From a virus: a stretch of 35,186 bases of DNA. The stretch lies in IMG/VR virus record IMGVR_UViG_3300048837_001131, positions 1-35,186 of that record; one strand, 5' to 3'. Shown here piece after piece: positions 5,299 through 35,186 of this stretch (position 1 is its first letter; every line of letters begins with the position of its first letter). The translations under genes were made by a program, and so were the position numbers. The notes below the pieces were generated by a model. That model worked only from the letters and a program-made list of their open reading frames with translations, was not told the DNA's origin and searched no databases.

Positions 5299-5659
5299 CA
5301 TGTCGTTTTCCCTCACGACGGCACAGTTCCTTGCCGGCTCGAAAGACGTCACCCGTCGGCTTGGCTGGCTTTTCCTGAAACCCGGCGACCTGGTGATGGG
5401 TTGTGAAAAGTGCATGGGCCTGAAACCCGGTGAAAACATCGTGCGGCTTGGCATCGTGGAAATTCTCGACGTCCGAAGGGAACCGCTCAACCGGATGACG
5501 GCCGATGCCGAATACGGACGGGCCGAAGCGATCCGGGAAGGATTCCCCGACATGACCGGCGGGCAGTTCGTTGAAATGTTCTGTTCACACATGGCCGCCA
5601 AGCCTGAAACGCTGGTGACCCGGATTGAATTCCGCCGCGTGGAAGGGGGGGCGGTTTGA
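5291..5659 (+). CDS. ASCH/PUA-like domain protein
   Basis: The product has 122 residues. The pattern FSLTTAQFLAGSKDVTRRLG, then LKPGDLVMGCEKCMGLKPGE and IVEILDVRREPL, follows the ASCH-type PUA-like fold seen in many phage early regions. Such domains are thought to bind RNA or modified nucleotides, and some act as readers or hydrolases of modified cytidine. Its position directly before a cytosine methyltransferase fits a role connected with nucleic-acid modification, an inference from context. The stop codon overlaps the TTG start of the methyltransferase. Confidence 0.7.
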   Translation: MRNMSFSLTTAQFLAGSKDVTRRLGWLFLKPGDLVMGCEKCMGLKPGENIVRLGIVEILDVRREPLNRMTADAEYGRAEAIREGFPDMTGGQFVEMFCSHMAAKPETLVTRIEFRRVEGGAV

Positions 5660-7206
5660 AATATCAGATTGCCGACCTTTTCTGTGGGGCGGGTGGAACA
5701 TCCGCCGGAGCCGTCGAGGCCGTCGCCGCTCTTGGCCGCCGCCCGCTGGTGACAGCGATCAATCATTGGCCTGTGGCGATCGCGACCCACACGGTGAACC
5801 ATCCTGAATCCCGCCACCTTTGCACCGGAGTTGATTCGGTGAATCCGCGGGAGCTTTTCAGCGAAGGGGAGCTTGATCTTCTTTGGGCATCCCCTGAATG
5901 CACGCATCACAGCATCGCCCGCGGTGGAAAGCCGATCAATGATCAGAGCCGGGCGACGGCGTGGTGTGTGGTACGATGGGCGGAAGCGCTCCGGCCGCCC
6001 GTGATCCTGATTGAGAACGTCCCGGAGTTTCAGACATGGGGGCCGATCGGTTCGAATGGGAAGCCGCTCGCCTCGAAAAAAGGCGAGACGTTTCAAGCCT
6101 GGCTGAACGCGCTTCGCTCGCTGGGATACAAGGTCGATCACCGGATGCTTTGTGCGGCCGACTACGGCGACCCGACGACGCGGACCCGTTTGTTCGTTCA
6201 AGCCGTGCGCGGCCGGCGGAAGATCGTTTGGCCGCATGCCACGCACTCGAAGGACGTCGATCTAATGTCCCCGAGACGATGGACACCGGCCCGCGAAATC
6301 ATCGATTGGAGCTTGCCGGCCGGATCGATCTTCGAACGGAAAAAACCGCTCTCGCCGAAAACCATGGCGAGGATCGACGCCGGCTTGAAGAAATTCGGCT
6401 TGAAAGGATTCATCGTGGCTTGGGATCACACGTCCGGCGGCTCGGGGAGCGGAATCGCTTCCGTCGAGTCGCCGCTCTCGACAGTGGTCACCAAGGCCCG
6501 CCATGGCATCGCGGAGCCGTTTCTAATCGGGCTTCGCGGAACCGGAGCCGATCAAATCAATTCTACGGCGAAGAGCCTCGACAATCCGACTCCGACGGTT
6601 ACCGCCTCCGGCAAGCACCTTGGGCTTGTATCGCCGTTCCTGATCAAGACCGCCAACGGATCGGGAGAATCGAACGCCTCCCGCGTCAAGTCACTTGACG
6701 AACCGATGCCGACGGTGTGCGGCAACCGTGGCGACGTCGCTCTAATCGAACCCTGTTTGCTCGGGCAACAATCATGTTCCGCGCTCCGCCCGATCAGCGA
6801 ACCGGCTCCGACTGTTTCAACGGCCGGAGCGATCGCCCTTGTCGAACCATTCCTGGTGAGCTTCTACGGCAACGGACAAGCCCATGACATCGGCGAGCCC
6901 GCTCCAACGGTGACTTGCAAGGATCGCTTCGGCCTGGTGCGGCCTGTGGTCGAAATCGACGGCAATCGATACCTTTTGGACATCCGATTCAGGATGCTTC
7001 AACCGCATGAACTGGCACTTGCGCAAGGGTTTCCCGCTGAATACCGGTTCACTGGCAGCAAGACCGATCAAGTGAAACAGATTGGAAACGCGGTGCCACG
7101 GCGGCTTGCAAGGGCCATCGTCGCCGCGGTTGTTTCCCAAAATGAAGACGTCGGCTTTCTGGTGGATGCAGAGGACGCCCGCAACACGGAAAGGGGGGCG
7201 GCATGA
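5656..7206 (+). CDS. DNA cytosine-C5 methyltransferase of phage type
   Basis: The product has 516 residues with a TTG start overlapping the previous stop (TTGA). Motifs: I, DLFCGAGG (7-14), binds S-adenosylmethionine; IV, ASPECTHHS with nucleophile Cys82 in a Ser-Pro-Glu-Cys context instead of the usual Pro-Cys; VI, ENVPEF (120-125); VIII-like, RTRLF; X, IGNAVP (476-481). The enzyme methylates carbon 5 of cytosine in a specific target, most likely to protect phage DNA from host restriction. No cognate restriction enzyme is adjacent. Residues 252-430, where target recognition should reside, consist of five degenerate repeats. The purine-rich motif GGAAGGGGGG gives a good ribosome-binding site for the TTG. 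Confidence 0.9.
   Translation: MKYQIADLFCGAGGTSAGAVEAVAALGRRPLVTAINHWPVAIATHTVNHPESRHLCTGVDSVNPRELFSEGELDLLWASPECTHHSIARGGKPINDQSRATAWCVVRWAEALRPPVILIENVPEFQTWGPIGSNGKPLASKKGETFQAWLNALRSLGYKVDHRMLCAADYGDPTTRTRLFVQAVRGRRKIVWPHATHSKDVDLMSPRRWTPAREIIDWSLPAGSIFERKKPLSPKTMARIDAGLKKFGLKGFIVAWDHTSGGSGSGIASVESPLSTVVTKARHGIAEPFLIGLRGTGADQINSTAKSLDNPTPTVTASGKHLGLVSPFLIKTANGSGESNASRVKSLDEPMPTVCGNRGDVALIEPCLLGQQSCSALRPISEPAPTVSTAGAIALVEPFLVSFYGNGQAHDIGEPAPTVTCKDRFGLVRPVVEIDGNRYLLDIRFRMLQPHELALAQGFPAEYRFTGSKTDQVKQIGNAVPRRLARAIVAAVVSQNEDVGFLVDAEDARNTERGAA
6409..6945 (+). repeat. Five degenerate protein repeats inside the methyltransferase
   Basis: Residues 252-430 of the methyltransferase contain five units of 32-39 residues. 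Each begins with a hydrophobic F(L/I)(V/I) strand, has the core SLDxPxPTVT or a close variant (ESPLSTVV, SLDNPTPTVT, SLDEPMPTVC, SEPAPTVS, GEPAPTVT), and ends in LVEP, LVSP or LIEP. They occupy the place of the target-recognition region between the two halves of the catalytic domain. At DNA level they are diverged, so the copies are old or under strong selection for diversity. Confidence 0.8.
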
Positions 7207-7865
7207 AGGTTTCCTTTTTCCCTTACCCTCTCCAAATCGGAGCGCTCGAATCGTTTTGCCATCCGGACCCATGCCACGTTTACGCGAAGCCTGCCTATCA
7301 CGACGGGCAGGCGTTGGCCGGGAACGGATTCATCCTGATCCGGGTTTCCCGCGGCCTGTGGATGCCCTCAGACTTCGAAGCTCCGCCCGCCGGCTTCATG
7401 ACGCGGTTTCAGGCCGCGCCTTGGAAAGCCCTCGACCCTGAATCCCCGGAATGGCGCTCGCTCGACGAAATCAAGGGCGATCTGTTCCGCTTTGGACAGA
7501 AAGGCGCATGGCTAAATGAGAAGTGCGCCCCGTCGCCCGTGTGGCGCGTTGGCGGCTCATTTCTGGCCCGCCAGACCCACTTGCAAATGATAGCCCGGCT
7601 TCCGCGATGCGAAATCTTGCTGGGGCAAGGCCCGCTTCATTTCAGGTTCAGCGGCGGCATTGGGATTCTCGCCAATGACCCGAAGTTGAAACTTTCATCC
7701 TTTTCGGTTTTCGCGCCGCAGTACTGCCCGCTGAACGGGCATGAAATCAAGCGGTCGAAAACACCTCCGCCGAATTTCGGCAAACCGCCACCGCCAGAGC
7801 CAACGCTCGACGATTGGCCGCCTGTGGATGCTTCCGACGATTCCAACATTCAAACTCAAGACTAA
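7203..7865 (+). CDS. Early protein of unknown function with a proline-rich tail
   Basis: The product has 220 residues. The body (1-180) looks alpha/beta, with GFILIRVSRGLWMPSDFE and FSVFAPQYCPLNG; the last 40 residues are proline- and acid-rich (PPPNFGKPPPPEPTLDDWPP), typical of a flexible tail. The ATG overlaps the methyltransferase stop (ATGA), and the purine-rich junction motif precedes it at 7188-7206. A distant likeness to single-domain DNA sliding-clamp-like phage proteins was considered but no defining motif is visible, so no function is claimed. Confidence 0.65.
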   Translation: MKVSFFPYPLQIGALESFCHPDPCHVYAKPAYHDGQALAGNGFILIRVSRGLWMPSDFEAPPAGFMTRFQAAPWKALDPESPEWRSLDEIKGDLFRFGQKGAWLNEKCAPSPVWRVGGSFLARQTHLQMIARLPRCEILLGQGPLHFRFSGGIGILANDPKLKLSSFSVFAPQYCPLNGHEIKRSKTPPPNFGKPPPPEPTLDDWPPVDASDDSNIQTQD

Positions 7866-7875
7866 CCCACCATTT

Positions 7876-8697
7876 ATGATCTGGCTCAACATCGCTGTTT
7901 CCGTCGCCCGCTCGCCCCAATACATCGGCAGCGAACCCACCCAAAGGAGCACTTGGTTTTCCCTGATGGCCTATTGTGCCGAACAGGAAAACGGGGGCGT
8001 CATCCGAGATTGCCACGAATGGAAGGACCGCCGATGGCAGCAAACGGCCGCTGTGACATTGGAGGAAGTGAACGATCACTGTGACCTTTTCTGGTTCGAT
8101 GGCGCGGACCTTCACGTTGCGTTCTATCCGGTGAATCGCGAGGCACAGGTTGCCGCCGGAAGGGCTGGCGGATCAAAGGGCGGGAGGCCCCCGAAAAACC
8201 CTCAAGAAAAACCCTCCCCGGAACCCTCCGAAAAACCCTCCCCTAAACCCGAAGAGAAGAGAAGAGAAGATATGGAAGGTAAGAGAGAGAGTGAAGATCC
8301 TGACACTCTCGCTCGCGACGGATTGGATCCGCTGGTTTCCAAAATCAAATCACTCCGCCCCGCATGGAAATCGCCTGCCGTTCTCACAGCCAAGGAACGG
8401 CCGATCTTCGAAGCGAACAGGGAAGTCTTTGCATGCTTCGATGACGATGATTGGGCCATTCAGCGCGAATACCTGGCCGCCCGCTTGCCCGACGGGAACC
8501 CCGGCTGGCAACCCCGTAGCCTGATCCAATACCTCGACAACCCGAGCGACGTCATGGGCCATGCCCGAAGCTGGAAGGCCAAGCAAAGGCCAGCCCCGAG
8601 CCCACCTAAACCTTTGCCGGAAGCAAGCGAGGAAGACAAAGCCGCTGTCGCGGACTTCCTCAAGAGCGGCGGACTTCTCAAGAGCAAGATCGCATGA
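7876..8697 (+). CDS. Probable phage replication-initiator-like protein
   Basis: The product has 273 residues from ATG 7876. Residues 1-90 (LMAYCAEQENGGVI, TLEEVNDHCDLFW) resemble the N-terminal domain of phage replication-organiser proteins. A charged linker at 96-135 is made of EKPSPEP-type repeats (EKPSPEPSEKPSPKPEEK), and a conserved-looking C-terminal helical domain follows. This arrangement recalls lambda O-type proteins: a DNA-binding head, a repetitive linker in which the origin often lies, and a partner-binding tail. The repeat-rich DNA at 8190-8300 could therefore hold the origin. The assignment rests on architecture and position only. Confidence 0.5.
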   Translation: MIWLNIAVSVARSPQYIGSEPTQRSTWFSLMAYCAEQENGGVIRDCHEWKDRRWQQTAAVTLEEVNDHCDLFWFDGADLHVAFYPVNREAQVAAGRAGGSKGGRPPKNPQEKPSPEPSEKPSPKPEEKRREDMEGKRESEDPDTLARDGLDPLVSKIKSLRPAWKSPAVLTAKERPIFEANREVFACFDDDDWAIQREYLAARLPDGNPGWQPRSLIQYLDNPSDVMGHARSWKAKQRPAPSPPKPLPEASEEDKAAVADFLKSGGLLKSKIA

Positions 8698-23507: not shown

Positions 23508-23583
23508 AGCGGGGTAGTTCAGTTGGTAGATCGGCGGACTCATATTCCGCAGCGCGTCGGTTCGAATCCGACCCCCGCAACCA
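23508..23583 (+). tRNA. tRNA-Met (anticodon CAT) between tail genes
   Basis: A 76-base cloverleaf with encoded CCA can be drawn by hand. The acceptor is AGCGGGG/CCCCGCA with an A1-A72 mismatch; the D stem is GTTC/GATC with a T11-T24 mismatch; the anticodon stem is GCGGA/TCCGC with loop CTCATAT (anticodon CAT); the variable loop is AGCGC; the T stem is GTCGG/CCGAC with loop TTCGAAT; the discriminator is A73, then CCA. The unpaired 1-72 position is a feature of initiator tRNAs, but the anticodon stem lacks the full three G-C pairs of an initiator. It could also be read as an Ile(CAT)-type precursor. It sits 9 bases after the tube gene. Confidence 0.88.
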
Positions 23584-30194: not shown

Positions 30195-30220
30195 TGGCGG
30201 ACAGGGAGGGATTCGAACCC
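30195..30220 (-). other. attP core: 3' end of a tRNA-Ser gene
   Basis: Read on the minus strand, this stretch ends in GGGTTCGAATCCCTCCCTG, then TCCGCCA: T loop, T-stem 3' side, acceptor CCTGTCC, discriminator G and CCA. This matches the 3' end of a serine tRNA. There is no matching 5' half (GGACAGG) upstream, so it is a fragment, not a gene. Lying directly beyond the 3' end of the integrase gene, it is the probable crossover core for integration into a host tRNA-Ser gene. Confidence 0.75.
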
Positions 30221-30234
30221 ACAAACACGGGATT

Positions 30235-31461
30235 TCACTCCCCGCCACTCCCCGTTTTCCTTGATTTTGCGGGCTTCTTTCGGAATGACGGGGAGTCACT
30301 TTCCAGAGGTCTGAGATACTTTTGAGATACCGTCGGCAGCTTGGCGAACCATGCCTTGGCCTCATCCTTACCCTTGGCATCGTTGTACGATTTCTTGGCT
30401 TCCGACTCGCTGTTGCCGGCTTCCATCGCCGTTTGAGCAAGCCCGACTTGGGCGGCCCGCATCGAAATGAAGGTGTGCCGTAGGGCGTTCTTCCGCCAGC
30501 CGCCGACGAGCTTCCCGAGGCGGGTGGTTTCCGCGTCCGCCCCGCCCCGCCGCGGGGTGTGTGGCGGGAGTTTGGGGCCGACACGCCCAAAGCTCTGCTT
30601 GATCGGCCAGAGGGCGGCTTTGAGCGCCGGGAGAATGGGAACGACGCGGCGGTGACCATTCTTGTCGGTTTCCGGCCGGATGATGATGAGGTTCCGGGAC
30701 CATTTGAAATCCGACCAGTCGAGCGGGCTTTTCCCGCTGGTCTCATCAGGGCAGGTTTCCTCAGTCCGGATTCCGGCGAGGCCCGCGCAGACCAGCCAAG
30801 CGAAGTACTTTGGATCGACGTTGGCGGCGAGAATTTCGAAATGGGAGCGGTCCCAGGTGGTCGGCACTTTGCGGATCACCTTGGGCTTTTCGAGCTTCTG
30901 AGGGGCGGTTTTCTCGCCGTAGGGCAGGAATCCCATTTCCGAGCACCATAGGAAGAATGTCACCCATGAAGATCGGAAGTTTTTGCGGTTGCGAGGGGCT
31001 CCGGTGATGGTTGGCAGGTCGGCCGGGCCGATGGCGGATAGATCCATGTCCGGGAGAACGGCGAGGTGGCGGGTCAAAATGTTGACATTGTGCGGGGAGC
31101 TTCCGGCGTTGGCCTTTTTCACCGCGAGGAACTCCGCGACGGCCTCTTTGCAGTTTTTCTTGGGAAGGCGCTTGGCATGCCACACAAGGAATTCGTCGGC
31201 GAGGGATAGGTAGGGATCGGCTTCCATGATGCGGCGGATGCCGCGGGTCTGCGAATCCGTGAGAGCCCCGAGTCTCGCCCGCCCCAGATAGGTTTCCTCA
31301 GCAATGCGTTTGGCTTCCGCCTTGGCCTTTTCCAATGTCGAGCGGACCACGTATTTTGAGCCGTTCCGGAACCGCCAGTAGCCGCGGCCGGCGGTGTTCG
31401 ACCACGGGAACACCGTGATCGAAACGGTTCGGTATTTGACCACGACGGATTCGGGTTTCAT
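30235..31461 (-). CDS. int: Tyrosine-type integrase
   Basis: The product has 408 residues from the ATG at 31461. The catalytic domain carries Arg232 in GLAGIRTEE, Arg328 in NALRHTFIS, and the nucleophile Tyr359 in KKSYNDAKG. The two usual histidine positions are Asn325 and Asn350 (AGNSES), variants seen in some integrases. The N-terminal part holds the arm- and core-binding domains. It catalyses integration and, with a partner, excision at attP, which lies 14 bases beyond its stop codon. The ATG overlaps the upstream minus-strand gene. It reads convergently towards the endolysin. Confidence 0.9.
   Translation of the reverse strand: MKPESVVVKYRTVSITVFPWSNTAGRGYWRFRNGSKYVVRSTLEKAKAEAKRIAEETYLGRARLGALTDSQTRGIRRIMEADPYLSLADEFLVWHAKRLPKKNCKEAVAEFLAVKKANAGSSPHNVNILTRHLAVLPDMDLSAIGPADLPTITGAPRNRKNFRSSWVTFFLWCSEMGFLPYGEKTAPQKLEKPKVIRKVPTTWDRSHFEILAANVDPKYFAWLVCAGLAGIRTEETCPDETSGKSPLDWSDFKWSRNLIIIRPETDKNGHRRVVPILPALKAALWPIKQSFGRVGPKLPPHTPRRGGADAETTRLGKLVGGWRKNALRHTFISMRAAQVGLAQTAMEAGNSESEAKKSYNDAKGKDEAKAWFAKLPTVSQKYLRPLESDSPSFRKKPAKSRKTGSGGE
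30313..30334 (+). repeat. Right attP arm repeat pair, inside the integrase gene
   Basis: GAGATAC at 30313-30319 and GAGATACCGTC at 30324-30334 repeat the left pair in the same orientation and spacing. They overlap the integrase C-terminus, encoding the VSQKYLRP part on the minus strand. The two pairs lie 161 bases apart with the tRNA-Ser core between. Confidence 0.6.
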
Positions 31462-31895
31462 GTGATCAGCGGGAAGAATTCGACGGTCGCTTGAAATGGG
31501 CGGACCGGGCCGGATTGGTATCCGAGGTTGAAGGCGGTAATGACATGACATCCGGAGCCGTGATTGATCCTGGCGAATGCCTGGAACTCTTCCATGGAAA
31601 CGTCACTCCCGATGATCCCGGAAAGCTCGAACGGCGATGCCGGGAACATGTCGCCGCCGGCATCGGGGAAAATCTCCGGATTCGCGTCAGGAACCAGCCG
31701 CCACGTTTCCCGATAGACGGGCCGGTTCTTGCTCCATGTCGATCCGGTGCAAACGTAGTTTCCGAACCGGTTCCCGGTCCTCATTCGATGATCCGGCCCC
31801 ATGACCATGCAATGGGCATCAATGAAGAACTCGACGGGGCGGATTCCCTCGATCAACGCAAGGGCGTCGGCGGGCTGGTGTGGGGCTGGTGTCAT
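31458..31895 (-). CDS. Unknown protein coupled to the integrase
   Basis: The product has 145 residues from the ATG at 31895 (MTPAPHQPADALALIEG); the in-frame ATG at 31967 would extend it by 24 residues but would overlap the divergent gene. The protein is globular, with AHCMVMGPDHRMRTGNRFGN and GCHVITAFNLGYQSGPV. No family was recognised. Its stop overlaps the integrase start, so both are expressed together, and a role in integration, excision control or lysogeny is possible. It has no helix-turn-helix, so it does not look like a typical excisionase. Confidence 0.6.
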   Translation of the reverse strand: MTPAPHQPADALALIEGIRPVEFFIDAHCMVMGPDHRMRTGNRFGNYVCTGSTWSKNRPVYRETWRLVPDANPEIFPDAGGDMFPASPFELSGIIGSDVSMEEFQAFARINHGSGCHVITAFNLGYQSGPVRPFQATVEFFPLIT

Positions 31896-31945: not shown

Positions 31946-32554
31946 ATGAAACCATCTTCGTGCCCACATTGCGGAACTTTGAATCAGATTCCCCCTCACT
32001 ATCTGGGGAAGCCGGTGAAATGCTCCGCGTGCAGCGGAGAGTTCAAGGCGATGGTTGCCAGTTTCCCGCCCCCCATGCCGACGATGGTCGCGGCTAACAA
32101 CCAACCTATCAGCCTGTGGAAGAAAAGCCCGGGGTGTATGGTGTTGGTTGTCTTGCTGGCGATTGGAATCGGCCTGTTTATCGCCATCACGGTGTTTTCG
32201 TCCGCGTTGCGCAGTGCAGAGCGGGAAAATCCGGCTTTCCGGGATCTCAATTCCGAAGCTCGGGCCGCCGCCGAAGATTCTGACGATTTGCCGCCTCTTA
32301 TCGAAGATCGCGGAATGGTATTGGCGAAAATCCGCGCCAACGCAGAAGCGAAATGGGGAACGAACTTCGCAATGGTCGAACACGAAATCGACCGTCAAGA
32401 AAGCGCCTATCGTGAGTTTCTCGGATACGCGGCGGCTGATGGGCAAGACGGCAGAATCGTTGCGACAGCCCGGCGCAAGTGGGGTGACAACTACGCGATG
32501 GCGGTTCACGAAATTGAACGGCAGAATGGAGCGCTGAACCGATTGGGCCGATGA
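31946..32554 (+). CDS. Zinc-ribbon membrane protein with a duplicated C-terminal motif
   Basis: The product has 202 residues. N-terminal zinc ribbon: Cys6, Cys9, Cys26, Cys29 (CPHC and CSAC). A strong membrane segment follows at 64-88 (CMVLVVLLAIGIGLFIAITV). The soluble tail carries two copies of the same motif, AKWGTNFAMVEHEIDRQ (135-151) and RKWGDNYAMAVHEIERQ (177-193). It is transcribed opposite to the integrase pair, in the lysogeny region. This suggests a membrane protein expressed from the prophage, for example for exclusion of other phages. No enzymatic motif is visible and no known family was assigned. Confidence 0.65.
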   Translation: MKPSSCPHCGTLNQIPPHYLGKPVKCSACSGEFKAMVASFPPPMPTMVAANNQPISLWKKSPGCMVLVVLLAIGIGLFIAITVFSSALRSAERENPAFRDLNSEARAAAEDSDDLPPLIEDRGMVLAKIRANAEAKWGTNFAMVEHEIDRQESAYREFLGYAAADGQDGRIVATARRKWGDNYAMAVHEIERQNGALNRLGR

Positions 32555-32558
32555 CAAT

Positions 32559-32672
32559 ATGCCAGAGTGGCTTAAAGGACGGCTGATCGTCGGGTTGGTC
32601 CTGTGGATTCTCATCGGGGCCGGGTGGGTGTTGTGGAAGGCCGGGCTTTGGGTGTGGGGCTGGTTTCAGTGA
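32559..32672 (+). CDS. Tiny membrane protein after the zinc-ribbon gene
   Basis: The product has 37 residues (MPEWLKGRLIVGLVLWILIG plus AGWVLWKAGLWVWGWFQ), a Trp-rich single span. ATG 32559 starts 4 bases after the stop of the zinc-ribbon protein, so the two are probably co-expressed and may act together in the membrane. It is small but nearly all of its sequence is membrane-suited. Confidence 0.5.
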   Translation: MPEWLKGRLIVGLVLWILIGAGWVLWKAGLWVWGWFQ

Positions 32673-32697: not shown

Positions 32698-33108
32698 TCA
32701 CGGTCCGTTGGTCCCGTCCGCCCTTCCCTGCTTTGCGAGGATTCGGCCCGCTTCGGCCCGGATAATGTCACGACAGAATGTGGCAAGCGACGGGCTTCCG
32801 ACGAGTCGGCTTGCCCGGTCCGCATCTTCCAGTTCCTGACCGCTCAGGTAAATCGCTGTATGGCCAGTCGGGATCTCCGGTGGCGGTTCAATATCCGGCC
32901 GAGGTTTCTCCGCCGCCTGGCGCAATTGCTCCCGCTCGATGGCATCTGATAGAGCTTTCTGAAGTAGCTCGGAACGATTCTTAGGGTCCGCATTTGTTGC
33001 CAAAGCAACGCGGATCGAATCGGGTTTGCGCCCGGATTCTTGAGCAAGCCAAGCCCGGTCTTTTCCTAGGGATTTAAGCGCCGCGTCGATTTCTTCAAAA
33101 GGAATCAT
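32698..33108 (-). CDS. Repressor-like DNA-binding protein
   Basis: The product has 136 residues from the ATG at 33108. The N-terminal region (LKSLGKDRAWLAQESGRKPD, then SIRVAL) fits a helix-turn-helix. The C-terminal region (TAIYLSGQELEDADRASRLV then SLATFCRDIIRAEA) resembles a ribbon-helix-helix/Arc-like unit, so it may hold two DNA-binding modules. It faces a divergent small gene across a 100-base region with three copies of one motif. A lysogeny repressor is the likely role. No LexA-type peptidase domain is seen, so induction would differ from lambda. Confidence 0.65.
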   Translation of the reverse strand: MIPFEEIDAALKSLGKDRAWLAQESGRKPDSIRVALATNADPKNRSELLQKALSDAIEREQLRQAAEKPRPDIEPPPEIPTGHTAIYLSGQELEDADRASRLVGSPSLATFCRDIIRAEAGRILAKQGRADGTNGP

Positions 33109-33128
33109 GGGCGGATGCTATCACCAAA

Positions 33129-33142
33129 AAGCAGAACATCAT
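33129..33142 (-). promoter_or_regulatory. Operator-like site 1
   Basis: On the minus strand the site reads ATGATGTTCTGCTT, matching the consensus ATGANNTTCTGCTT of the two sites to its right but in opposite orientation. It lies 21 bases upstream of the repressor-like gene start. Confidence 0.6.
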
Positions 33143-33161
33143 ACAATTATTTTCCCAAAAG

Positions 33162-33175
33162 ATGAAATTCTGCTT
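33162..33175 (+). promoter_or_regulatory. Operator-like site 2
   Basis: The site reads ATGAAATTCTGCTT. It is 22 bases left of site 3 in the same orientation, which places both on the same face of the helix. It shares ATGA and TTCTGCTT with the other two sites. Confidence 0.6.
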
Positions 33176-33183
33176 GTGAATGG

Positions 33184-33197
33184 ATGATTTTCTGCTT
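33184..33197 (+). promoter_or_regulatory. Operator-like site 3
   Basis: The site reads ATGATTTTCTGCTT, 11 bases before the ATG of the divergent gene at 33209, well placed to block its translation-start region or promoter. The A+T-rich region between sites 1 and 2, with TACAATTAT, could hold promoter elements for both directions. Confidence 0.6.
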
Positions 33198-33208
33198 TTG
33201 CTTCCCAC

Positions 33209-33409
33209 ATGCAAACGCAAGACCGCCTCACCGCCGTGGATCTCCGGGACCTGACCGAATCCGAACATGCCGCGCTTCGTCAAGCCGCGATCACCGCGAA
33301 TCTATCACTTCCCGAATACCTCGGAAAGCTGGTTGCCGATACGTCCCGCCGTCTCTTGGACCGCTCCCGCCAGCCGGCGTCCAAAAAGATCACCGGCCCC
33401 GCCGGCTGA
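33209..33409 (+). CDS. Small ribbon-helix-helix-like protein, first gene of the lytic strand
   Basis: The product has 66 residues: MQTQDRLTAVDLRDLTESEH, then AALRQAAITANLSLPEYLGK and LVADTSRRLL. This is the pattern of a short helix-turn-helix/ribbon-helix-helix unit similar to small antitoxin- or Cro-like regulators. It opens the plus-strand early genes, divergent from the repressor-like gene. Its position suggests a Cro-like partner. The function is inferred. Confidence 0.6.
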   Translation: MQTQDRLTAVDLRDLTESEHAALRQAAITANLSLPEYLGKLVADTSRRLLDRSRQPASKKITGPAG

Positions 33410-34597: not shown

Positions 34598-35186
34598 ATG
34601 TGTGACTTCCATTCAATCGTTGTTCGCGCCGATGGCGCTTTCGCCCACATCGCCGGCAATTCCCACTCGGGAGCTGTCGAGGCCGCCGGCTGGCGGGAAA
34701 ATGACCAGATGGCCGATTTCCGCGGCAAATTCTTCGTGGAAGCGGAATGGGACGGGATTGGTGCTTTCCCAGGCGCGGAGTCGATCACCCGCGGCGACAT
34801 GAATGAGAAGCAACGGAAGCTGATCACCAACCATTACACCGCCCTTCAAAAGCTGCTATCCGATCCGGCGAGCCATGCGGAACGGATGTGTCTCGGACGC
34901 GGGATTTTCTCGAAACCGGAATTCGCCGACGTGCGGTGGAAGGCTTTCGTCGATCCCCGGACGCCCGAGGATGTGGTTGCGAAGCTGGCGGAAACCGAAC
35001 TGTTCGCGGACGGATGCACGATTTCAAAGCTTCACCCAGCGGTGACCCGGATCGACGGTGGTTTCCACATCGCGAAAAAGGCGGTGATTGAAGCCCCGGT
35101 GCTCGCCCAGAGCGGATACGTTCGGCTCTACCAAGGCGCGTCCTTCACGGCCCCGGTGCTCGCCCAGAGCGGAGACGTTCGGCTCG
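34598..35186 (+). CDS. 19-residue-repeat protein, 5' part (runs off the right edge)
   Basis: The frame opens at ATG 34598 and is still open at the window end (196 codons). Residues 1-150 form a non-repetitive domain (MCDFHSIVVRADGAFAHIAG; FFVEAEWDGIGAFPGAESIT; TPEDVVAKLAETELFADGCT). From about residue 160 it enters repeats: EAPVLAQSGYVRL, then YQGASFTAPVLAQSGDVRL. The gene resumes at positions 2-130 after the circular junction. The repeats suggest a stacked beta structure, as in leucine-rich-like proteins of phages. Function is unknown. The repeat part is expected to be variable in copy number. Confidence 0.75.
   Translation, partial: MCDFHSIVVRADGAFAHIAGNSHSGAVEAAGWRENDQMADFRGKFFVEAEWDGIGAFPGAESITRGDMNEKQRKLITNHYTALQKLLSDPASHAERMCLGRGIFSKPEFADVRWKAFVDPRTPEDVVAKLAETELFADGCTISKLHPAVTRIDGGFHIAKKAVIEAPVLAQSGYVRLYQGASFTAPVLAQSGDVRL
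35129..35185 (+). repeat. 57-bp tandem repeat unit at the right edge
   Basis: This unit encodes YQGASFTAPVLAQSGDVRL. Its 56 bases at 35130-35185 are identical to 3-58 at the left edge, so the same sequence is present at both ends of the window. Confidence 0.85.

Follow-up and report, generated by a model that had tools for sequence, protein, structure and literature searches.

A zinc-ribbon membrane protein with WG repeats in a phage lysogeny module, a candidate for superinfection exclusion

In Streptococcus phage TP-J34, DNA injection is blocked by Ltp, which consists of a lipid anchor, a spacer, and repeats, and the gene of which lies between the int and cI genes and is expressed in the prophage (PMC3952083). 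A protein of related build is encoded in the 35,186-base virus record analysed here, which is referred to as the window. Like Ltp (PF07553; PDB 4eqq), this protein A combines a membrane anchor, a spacer, and two small helical repeats, and its gene belongs to a lysogeny module. The first-pass annotation, which had proposed an exclusion function, knew of no described exclusion protein with this plan, and in this point it has to be corrected, as Ltp shows the same general arrangement of anchor, spacer, two helical repeats, and a gene between int and cI. The differences are nevertheless clear: Ltp has a lipid anchor, no zinc ribbon, and a gene oriented as int, whereas protein A has a membrane span, a zinc ribbon, and a gene opposed to int, and exclusion has been demonstrated for Ltp but is proposed for protein A by analogy. 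Protein A is not a member of the Ltp family by sequence or by anchor type. PF07553 is missing among its Pfam matches at E<=1, BLASTP against Ltp gave E=0.77 over 7 residues, and no lipobox can be read at its N-terminus, the anchor being an internal span. As to the fold, 4eqq is not among the Foldseek and VIA matches listed for its model.

In TcaA of Staphylococcus, a membrane span is followed by an outside domain. The protein has been described to possess a zinc ribbon (PMC10611510). TcaA and protein A thus share an N-terminal zinc ribbon, then a span, and then an outside domain, the latter being predicted in protein A, but TcaA has no WG repeats, is chromosomally encoded, and its outside domain is unrelated to that of protein A. 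In profile, BLASTP and structure searches, protein A matched no exclusion protein in sequence or fold, PADLOC anti-phage defence profiles gave no match at E<=1, PDB sequence, fold and BFVD searches gave nothing at E<=0.001, and no literature was found on a zinc ribbon in combination with superinfection exclusion and prophage.

The lysogeny module of the window phage

The following features of the window are relevant:
30195-30222, - strand: probable attP core, a tRNA 3' end (T-arm, acceptor, CCA), read directly, just past the integrase stop
30235-31461, - strand: tyrosine-type integrase (phrog_1, E=3e-11), likely start 31461; relatives align from here
31458-31895, - strand: small gene upstream of the integrase, translationally coupled by an ATGA overlap, no Pfam match
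31946-32554, + strand: protein A, 202 residues, with a zinc-ribbon-like N-terminus, one membrane span, a linker, and two C-terminal WG helical-hairpin repeats
31961-32035, + strand: zinc-ribbon-like segment CPHC...CSAC, protein A residues about 6-30, read directly
32138-32197, + strand: predicted single membrane span, protein A residues about 65-84, at the hydropathy maximum
32330-32425, + strand: WG repeat 1, AKWGTNFAMVEHEIDRQESAYREF, protein A residues about 129-160, from repeat alignment, HMM, and model
32456-32551, + strand: WG repeat 2, RKWGDNYAMAVHEIERQNGALNRL, protein A residues about 171-202, from repeat alignment, HMM, and model
32559-32672, + strand: Trp-rich hydrophobic ORF of 37 residues, starting 4 nt after the protein A stop
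32698-33108, - strand: repressor-like gene with a helix-turn-helix-like N-terminus, convergent with protein A and the 37-residue ORF, divergent from the + strand gene at 33209
33126-33200, no strand assigned: operator-like sequence TTCTGCTT in three copies, one of them inverted relative to the other two, between the divergent repressor-like and early genes

Both ORFs exist at the coordinates given in the first-pass annotation, and the span and the duplicated KWGxNxAM motif that it had recognised in protein A have been confirmed, as have two CxxC knuckles in the proposed zinc ribbon. Hydropathy peaks in the 19-mer from residue 66 on (mean KD 3.0). The two C-terminal KWGxNxAM repeats have 16 identical columns in their alignment, and as their local score of 80 lies above those of all 5000 shuffles (mean 20.0, sd 4.0, maximum 42), the duplication is not due to chance. 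Codon usage scores 0.135 bits/codon for protein A versus -0.129 for the fully open antisense frame, the other frames are also disfavoured, and the codon habit of the phage backs also int, the small gene ahead of it, and the repressor-like gene. The zinc-ribbon segment has weak, sub-threshold matches to PF21352 (E=0.001) and TIGR02098 (E=0.05), missing the cut-offs of these MJ0042-type / Thio2 zinc ribbons with 19.3 of 27.1 bits and 13.3 of 20.9 bits, respectively; both CxxC pairs are present despite these scores below the curated cut-offs. From the style of the zinc ribbon, a host of the PVC group is suspected.

Protein A is encoded between the repressor-like gene and the integrase, the likely start of which overlaps the stop of the upstream gene. 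A tRNA 3' end beside an integrase is a classic attachment site. The best family match of the repressor-like gene is weak (phrog_769, E=0.2) and direct comparison with the L008 and L006 repressors gave nothing significant, but homologues lie ahead of integrases in L149 (49% identical) and L150 (62% over the first 65 residues). The operator-like copies are confined to 75 bases and occur nowhere else in the window at the same match level. Taken together, the repressor-like gene, the operator-like cluster, the homologues that precede integrases, and the tRNA end place protein A in the lysogeny module of a temperate phage. The WG module is missing in 23 related phage records. Little or nothing separates repressor and integrase in L004, L008, and L150, while in L149 this slot contains a different hydrophobic gene of 101 residues on the opposing strand (1555-1860, - strand). 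Protein A is thus best explained as exchangeable cargo of the lysogeny module. In two related phages, a hydrophobic gene, possibly for a membrane protein, follows directly after the integrase (L007, 11500-11946; L008, 9411-9866), which is another possible lysogenic cargo.

As to its expression, protein A and the 37-residue ORF indeed oppose the integrase and its upstream gene, as had been noted before. The view that the pair is separate from the lytic transcription unit has to be qualified, since the two genes share their strand with the lytic genes and a search for an intervening terminator found none, so that a late read-through into protein A is possible in circular replicating phage DNA. 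The earlier suggestion of an expression from the prophage gains support from position, as the repressor-like gene with its operators, the integrase with its tRNA attachment site, and homologous repeats beside the repressors of unrelated temperate phages fit a membrane cargo that is expressed in the lysogen; a promoter could not be recognised upstream of protein A.

Protein A and the 37-residue peptide might instead be late proteins with a role in lysis, expressed when transcription of the lysis genes reads through. The location downstream of the endolysin on the lytic strand, without a convincing terminator between, would agree with this, as would the holin- or toxin-like composition of the peptide and a WG gene that adjoins a prophage amidase in the bacterial genome L106. 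It is nevertheless quite unlikely, as 1.8 kb of the opposed integrase pair, and in the prophage also the att site, lie between the endolysin and protein A, and as the homologues in most viral loci are found beside repressors and not beside holins. Protein A is encoded opposite to the integrase operon, almost touching it, and is convergent with the repressor gene, and binding of nucleic acids or proteins is common among zinc ribbons, which would suit a regulator, the zinc ribbon of which contacts DNA, RNA or protein, or a transcript antisense to the integrase operon, that tunes lysogeny or integration. Antisense control, however, needs neither a membrane span nor a conserved C-terminal hairpin domain, and related phages whose integrase is also related do without protein A, which makes such a role improbable.

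The 4-nt spacing after the protein A stop gives the two + strand ORFs the appearance of an operon. The small ORF contains 7 Trp and has a codon-usage score of 0.172 bits/codon, to be read with its short sequence in mind; profile searches and tblastn in phages found no homologue, and PADLOC profiles gave no match at E<=1. Going by the gene coupling, its product probably is a co-made membrane partner of protein A. A small, hydrophobic, Trp-rich peptide that is coupled to a membrane partner could also be a membrane toxin that is restrained by protein A, in the manner of a toxin-antitoxin pair, but with no homologue or known family match of the peptide, this is very unlikely.

The WG repeat family

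With protein A alone, a scan of viral contigs gave no convincing match, and neither did tblastn searches of phages and plasmids with the whole protein or its C-terminal half. The repeats were searched by pattern, and the module they constitute is named WG repeat module in the present analysis. Its core, [C/A]xx[KE]W[GP]x[DN][YF]xMxx[YH][C/E]xxxQxxA in tandem, is found in protein A. The pattern W-G-x-[DN]-[YF]-x-M-x-x-[HY]-x-[IV]-x-x-Q detected, at the DNA level, nine viral contigs, all with the same kind of repeat, mostly in tandem and within signal-peptide proteins, and these repeats are alike also beyond the searched positions, with tandem copies, a CX13C pair, and a trailing A. An HMM built from these contigs, with protein A left out, matched both repeats of protein A with 43.6 bits, versus a best score of 10.4 bits among 5000 shuffles of protein A, in a test that is partly circular since the pattern positions had been picked from protein A. 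Another pattern, in which Glu replaces the second Cys, yielded three viral and ten bacterial loci, and nine of the latter are family members (Chloroflexota, CPR bacteria, Bacillota, Bacteroidota, Alphaproteobacteria). The closest relatives are 31-40% identical to protein A across the whole two-repeat domain.

The WG repeat is a rare and patchily spread bacterial module. It is missing from Pfam, NCBIfam, and PHROGs as far as these were scanned, the repeat region of the sampled members having no convincing match in any of them. Beyond the seeds, it was found in 0 of 286, 0 of 300, 3 of 397, and 0 of 298 genomes in four phyla, and tblastn with three Cys-type relatives gave no convincing match in phages. 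Among 61 repeat units, the two cysteines of the CX13C pair are both present in 34, both missing in 27, and never single, whereby in the Cys-less class the second position had been fixed by the search pattern and the first was free. The repeats of protein A are Cys-less. AlphaFold2 models predict four helices, with one hairpin per repeat, for the repeats of protein A (pLDDT 89.4), and four helices also for a Cys-type relative (pLDDT 94.0), so that the prediction of a helical hairpin for each WG repeat is of high confidence; the coupled cysteines together with the hairpin models fit a hairpin outside the cytoplasm. Solved structures and viral models gave no good match to the WG models, the best VIA hit (Z 4.4) being a designed helical protein and uninformative.

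Two groups of relatives can be compared with protein A. The Cys-bearing WG proteins beside repressors of P2-like and other prophages (L091, L092, L095-L099, L118), for which no published name was found, share the core, the predicted hairpin pair, and the neighbourhood, but unlike protein A they have a signal peptide, a CX13C pair in each repeat, and no fused zinc ribbon or span. The Cys-less anchored proteins (L101/L113 of a phage; L103, L106, L107, and L112 of bacteria) end, like protein A, in a two-repeat domain that a linker joins to an anchor or signal, with 33-40% identity to protein A over the repeat domain, but their N-terminal parts differ. Alphaproteobacterial Cys-less proteins that consist of WG repeats only, have no signal peptide, and are apparently cytoplasmic also occur (L108, L110, L137). 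Zinc-ribbon genes, most of them with a span, adjoin WG genes in L107, L112, L115, and L123, in L115 as a zinc-ribbon bPH protein, but the zinc-ribbon/TM protein of L107 and L112 is a separate neighbouring gene, whereas protein A is alone among the collected WG proteins in having the zinc ribbon fused. The combination of domains that the first-pass annotation had called unusual is less so than claimed, as the repeat is present in many anchored bacterial proteins.

In eight other viral contigs (L091, L092/L119, L095, L096, L097/L117, L098/L115, L099/L123, L118), the WG gene lies directly or at most two genes after a CI/XRE-type repressor, with PHROG matches backing the repressors in L091, L095, L096, L115, L117, L118, L119, and L123. 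In L123 the order is repressor, zinc-ribbon/TM gene, WG gene, and integrase, and in L118 it is repressor, WG gene, several small genes, and integrase. Judged from their neighbours, several of these loci look like one P2-like lineage, and perhaps three or four are independent cases, in addition to the window. In bacterial genomes, an XRE-type gene lies directly upstream of the WG gene in L139, and in L111 a phage integrase is next to the WG gene. The WG genes of L093, L094, and L120, by contrast, lie in non-repressor regions, and together with the cytoplasmic-looking proteins they indicate that the WG module is not exclusive to lysogeny. Neighbours of the module are of membrane or envelope type (zinc-ribbon/TM, bPH/SHOCT, SNase). 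In L113, a phage with Mu-like gene order, a gene of a secreted staphylococcal-nuclease-like protein directly precedes the WG gene (6951-7406 and 7476-8267), and this pairing could bear on DNA entry. A possible WG-SNase fusion in the bacterial genome L143 was dropped as evidence, as its ORF is broken and has no Pfam match.

The real find is the family of WG repeats, together with its repeated occurrence next to repressors. What had been an orphan motif now belongs to a family of repeats that is not yet catalogued, for which a fold is predicted, the Cys pair offers a testable signature, and a site beside prophage repressors recurs, and a short list of candidate exclusion genes follows from it.

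Possible functions of protein A

By analogy with Ltp, the likeliest of the roles considered for protein A is that of a membrane-tethered superinfection-exclusion protein, for which the probability is estimated at roughly 0.42. It would be made in the lysogen as exchangeable cargo and be anchored by its one span in the inner membrane. The zinc ribbon would most likely face the cytoplasm, and the two rigid WG hairpin repeats most likely the periplasm. This orientation is suggested by the exported relatives, by the Cys pair that points to an oxidising compartment, and by the zinc knuckle that suits the cytoplasm. The repeats could then encounter the injection machinery of a superinfecting phage at the membrane and, like Ltp, prevent its DNA from entering.

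The positional evidence is identical if protein A, expressed from the prophage, serves another lysogenic conversion and alters the envelope, the stress response, or the metal handling of the host instead of phage entry. Many WG proteins are lipoproteins or membrane proteins of hosts (Chloroflexota, CPR bacteria, Bacillota), several of them without a phage gene in view, and a sensor of metal or redox state is conceivable in the zinc ribbon. Viral WG genes, however, are concentrated beside repressors, which is the classic site of exclusion genes, and protein A is not accompanied by a metabolic or envelope gene, so that such a conversion appears rather unlikely. As to the wider family, temperate phages from several bacterial phyla may keep the WG hairpin beside their repressors as a superinfection-exclusion module that has escaped description, disulfide-stapled in proteobacterial periplasms, Cys-less elsewhere, and here fused to a zinc-ribbon membrane anchor; this generalisation is tentative and must be regarded as doubtful.

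Other features of the window

A 57-bp tandem repeat, encoding a unit of 19 residues, is found at both contig ends (1-92 and 35093-35186), and the record thus probably represents a circular or permuted genome that is broken inside the repeat of the gene at 34598. A phage-encoded tRNA-Met (CAT) lies between structural genes (23508-23583), and among the early genes, the region 5656-7206 reads as a C5 cytosine DNA methyltransferase.
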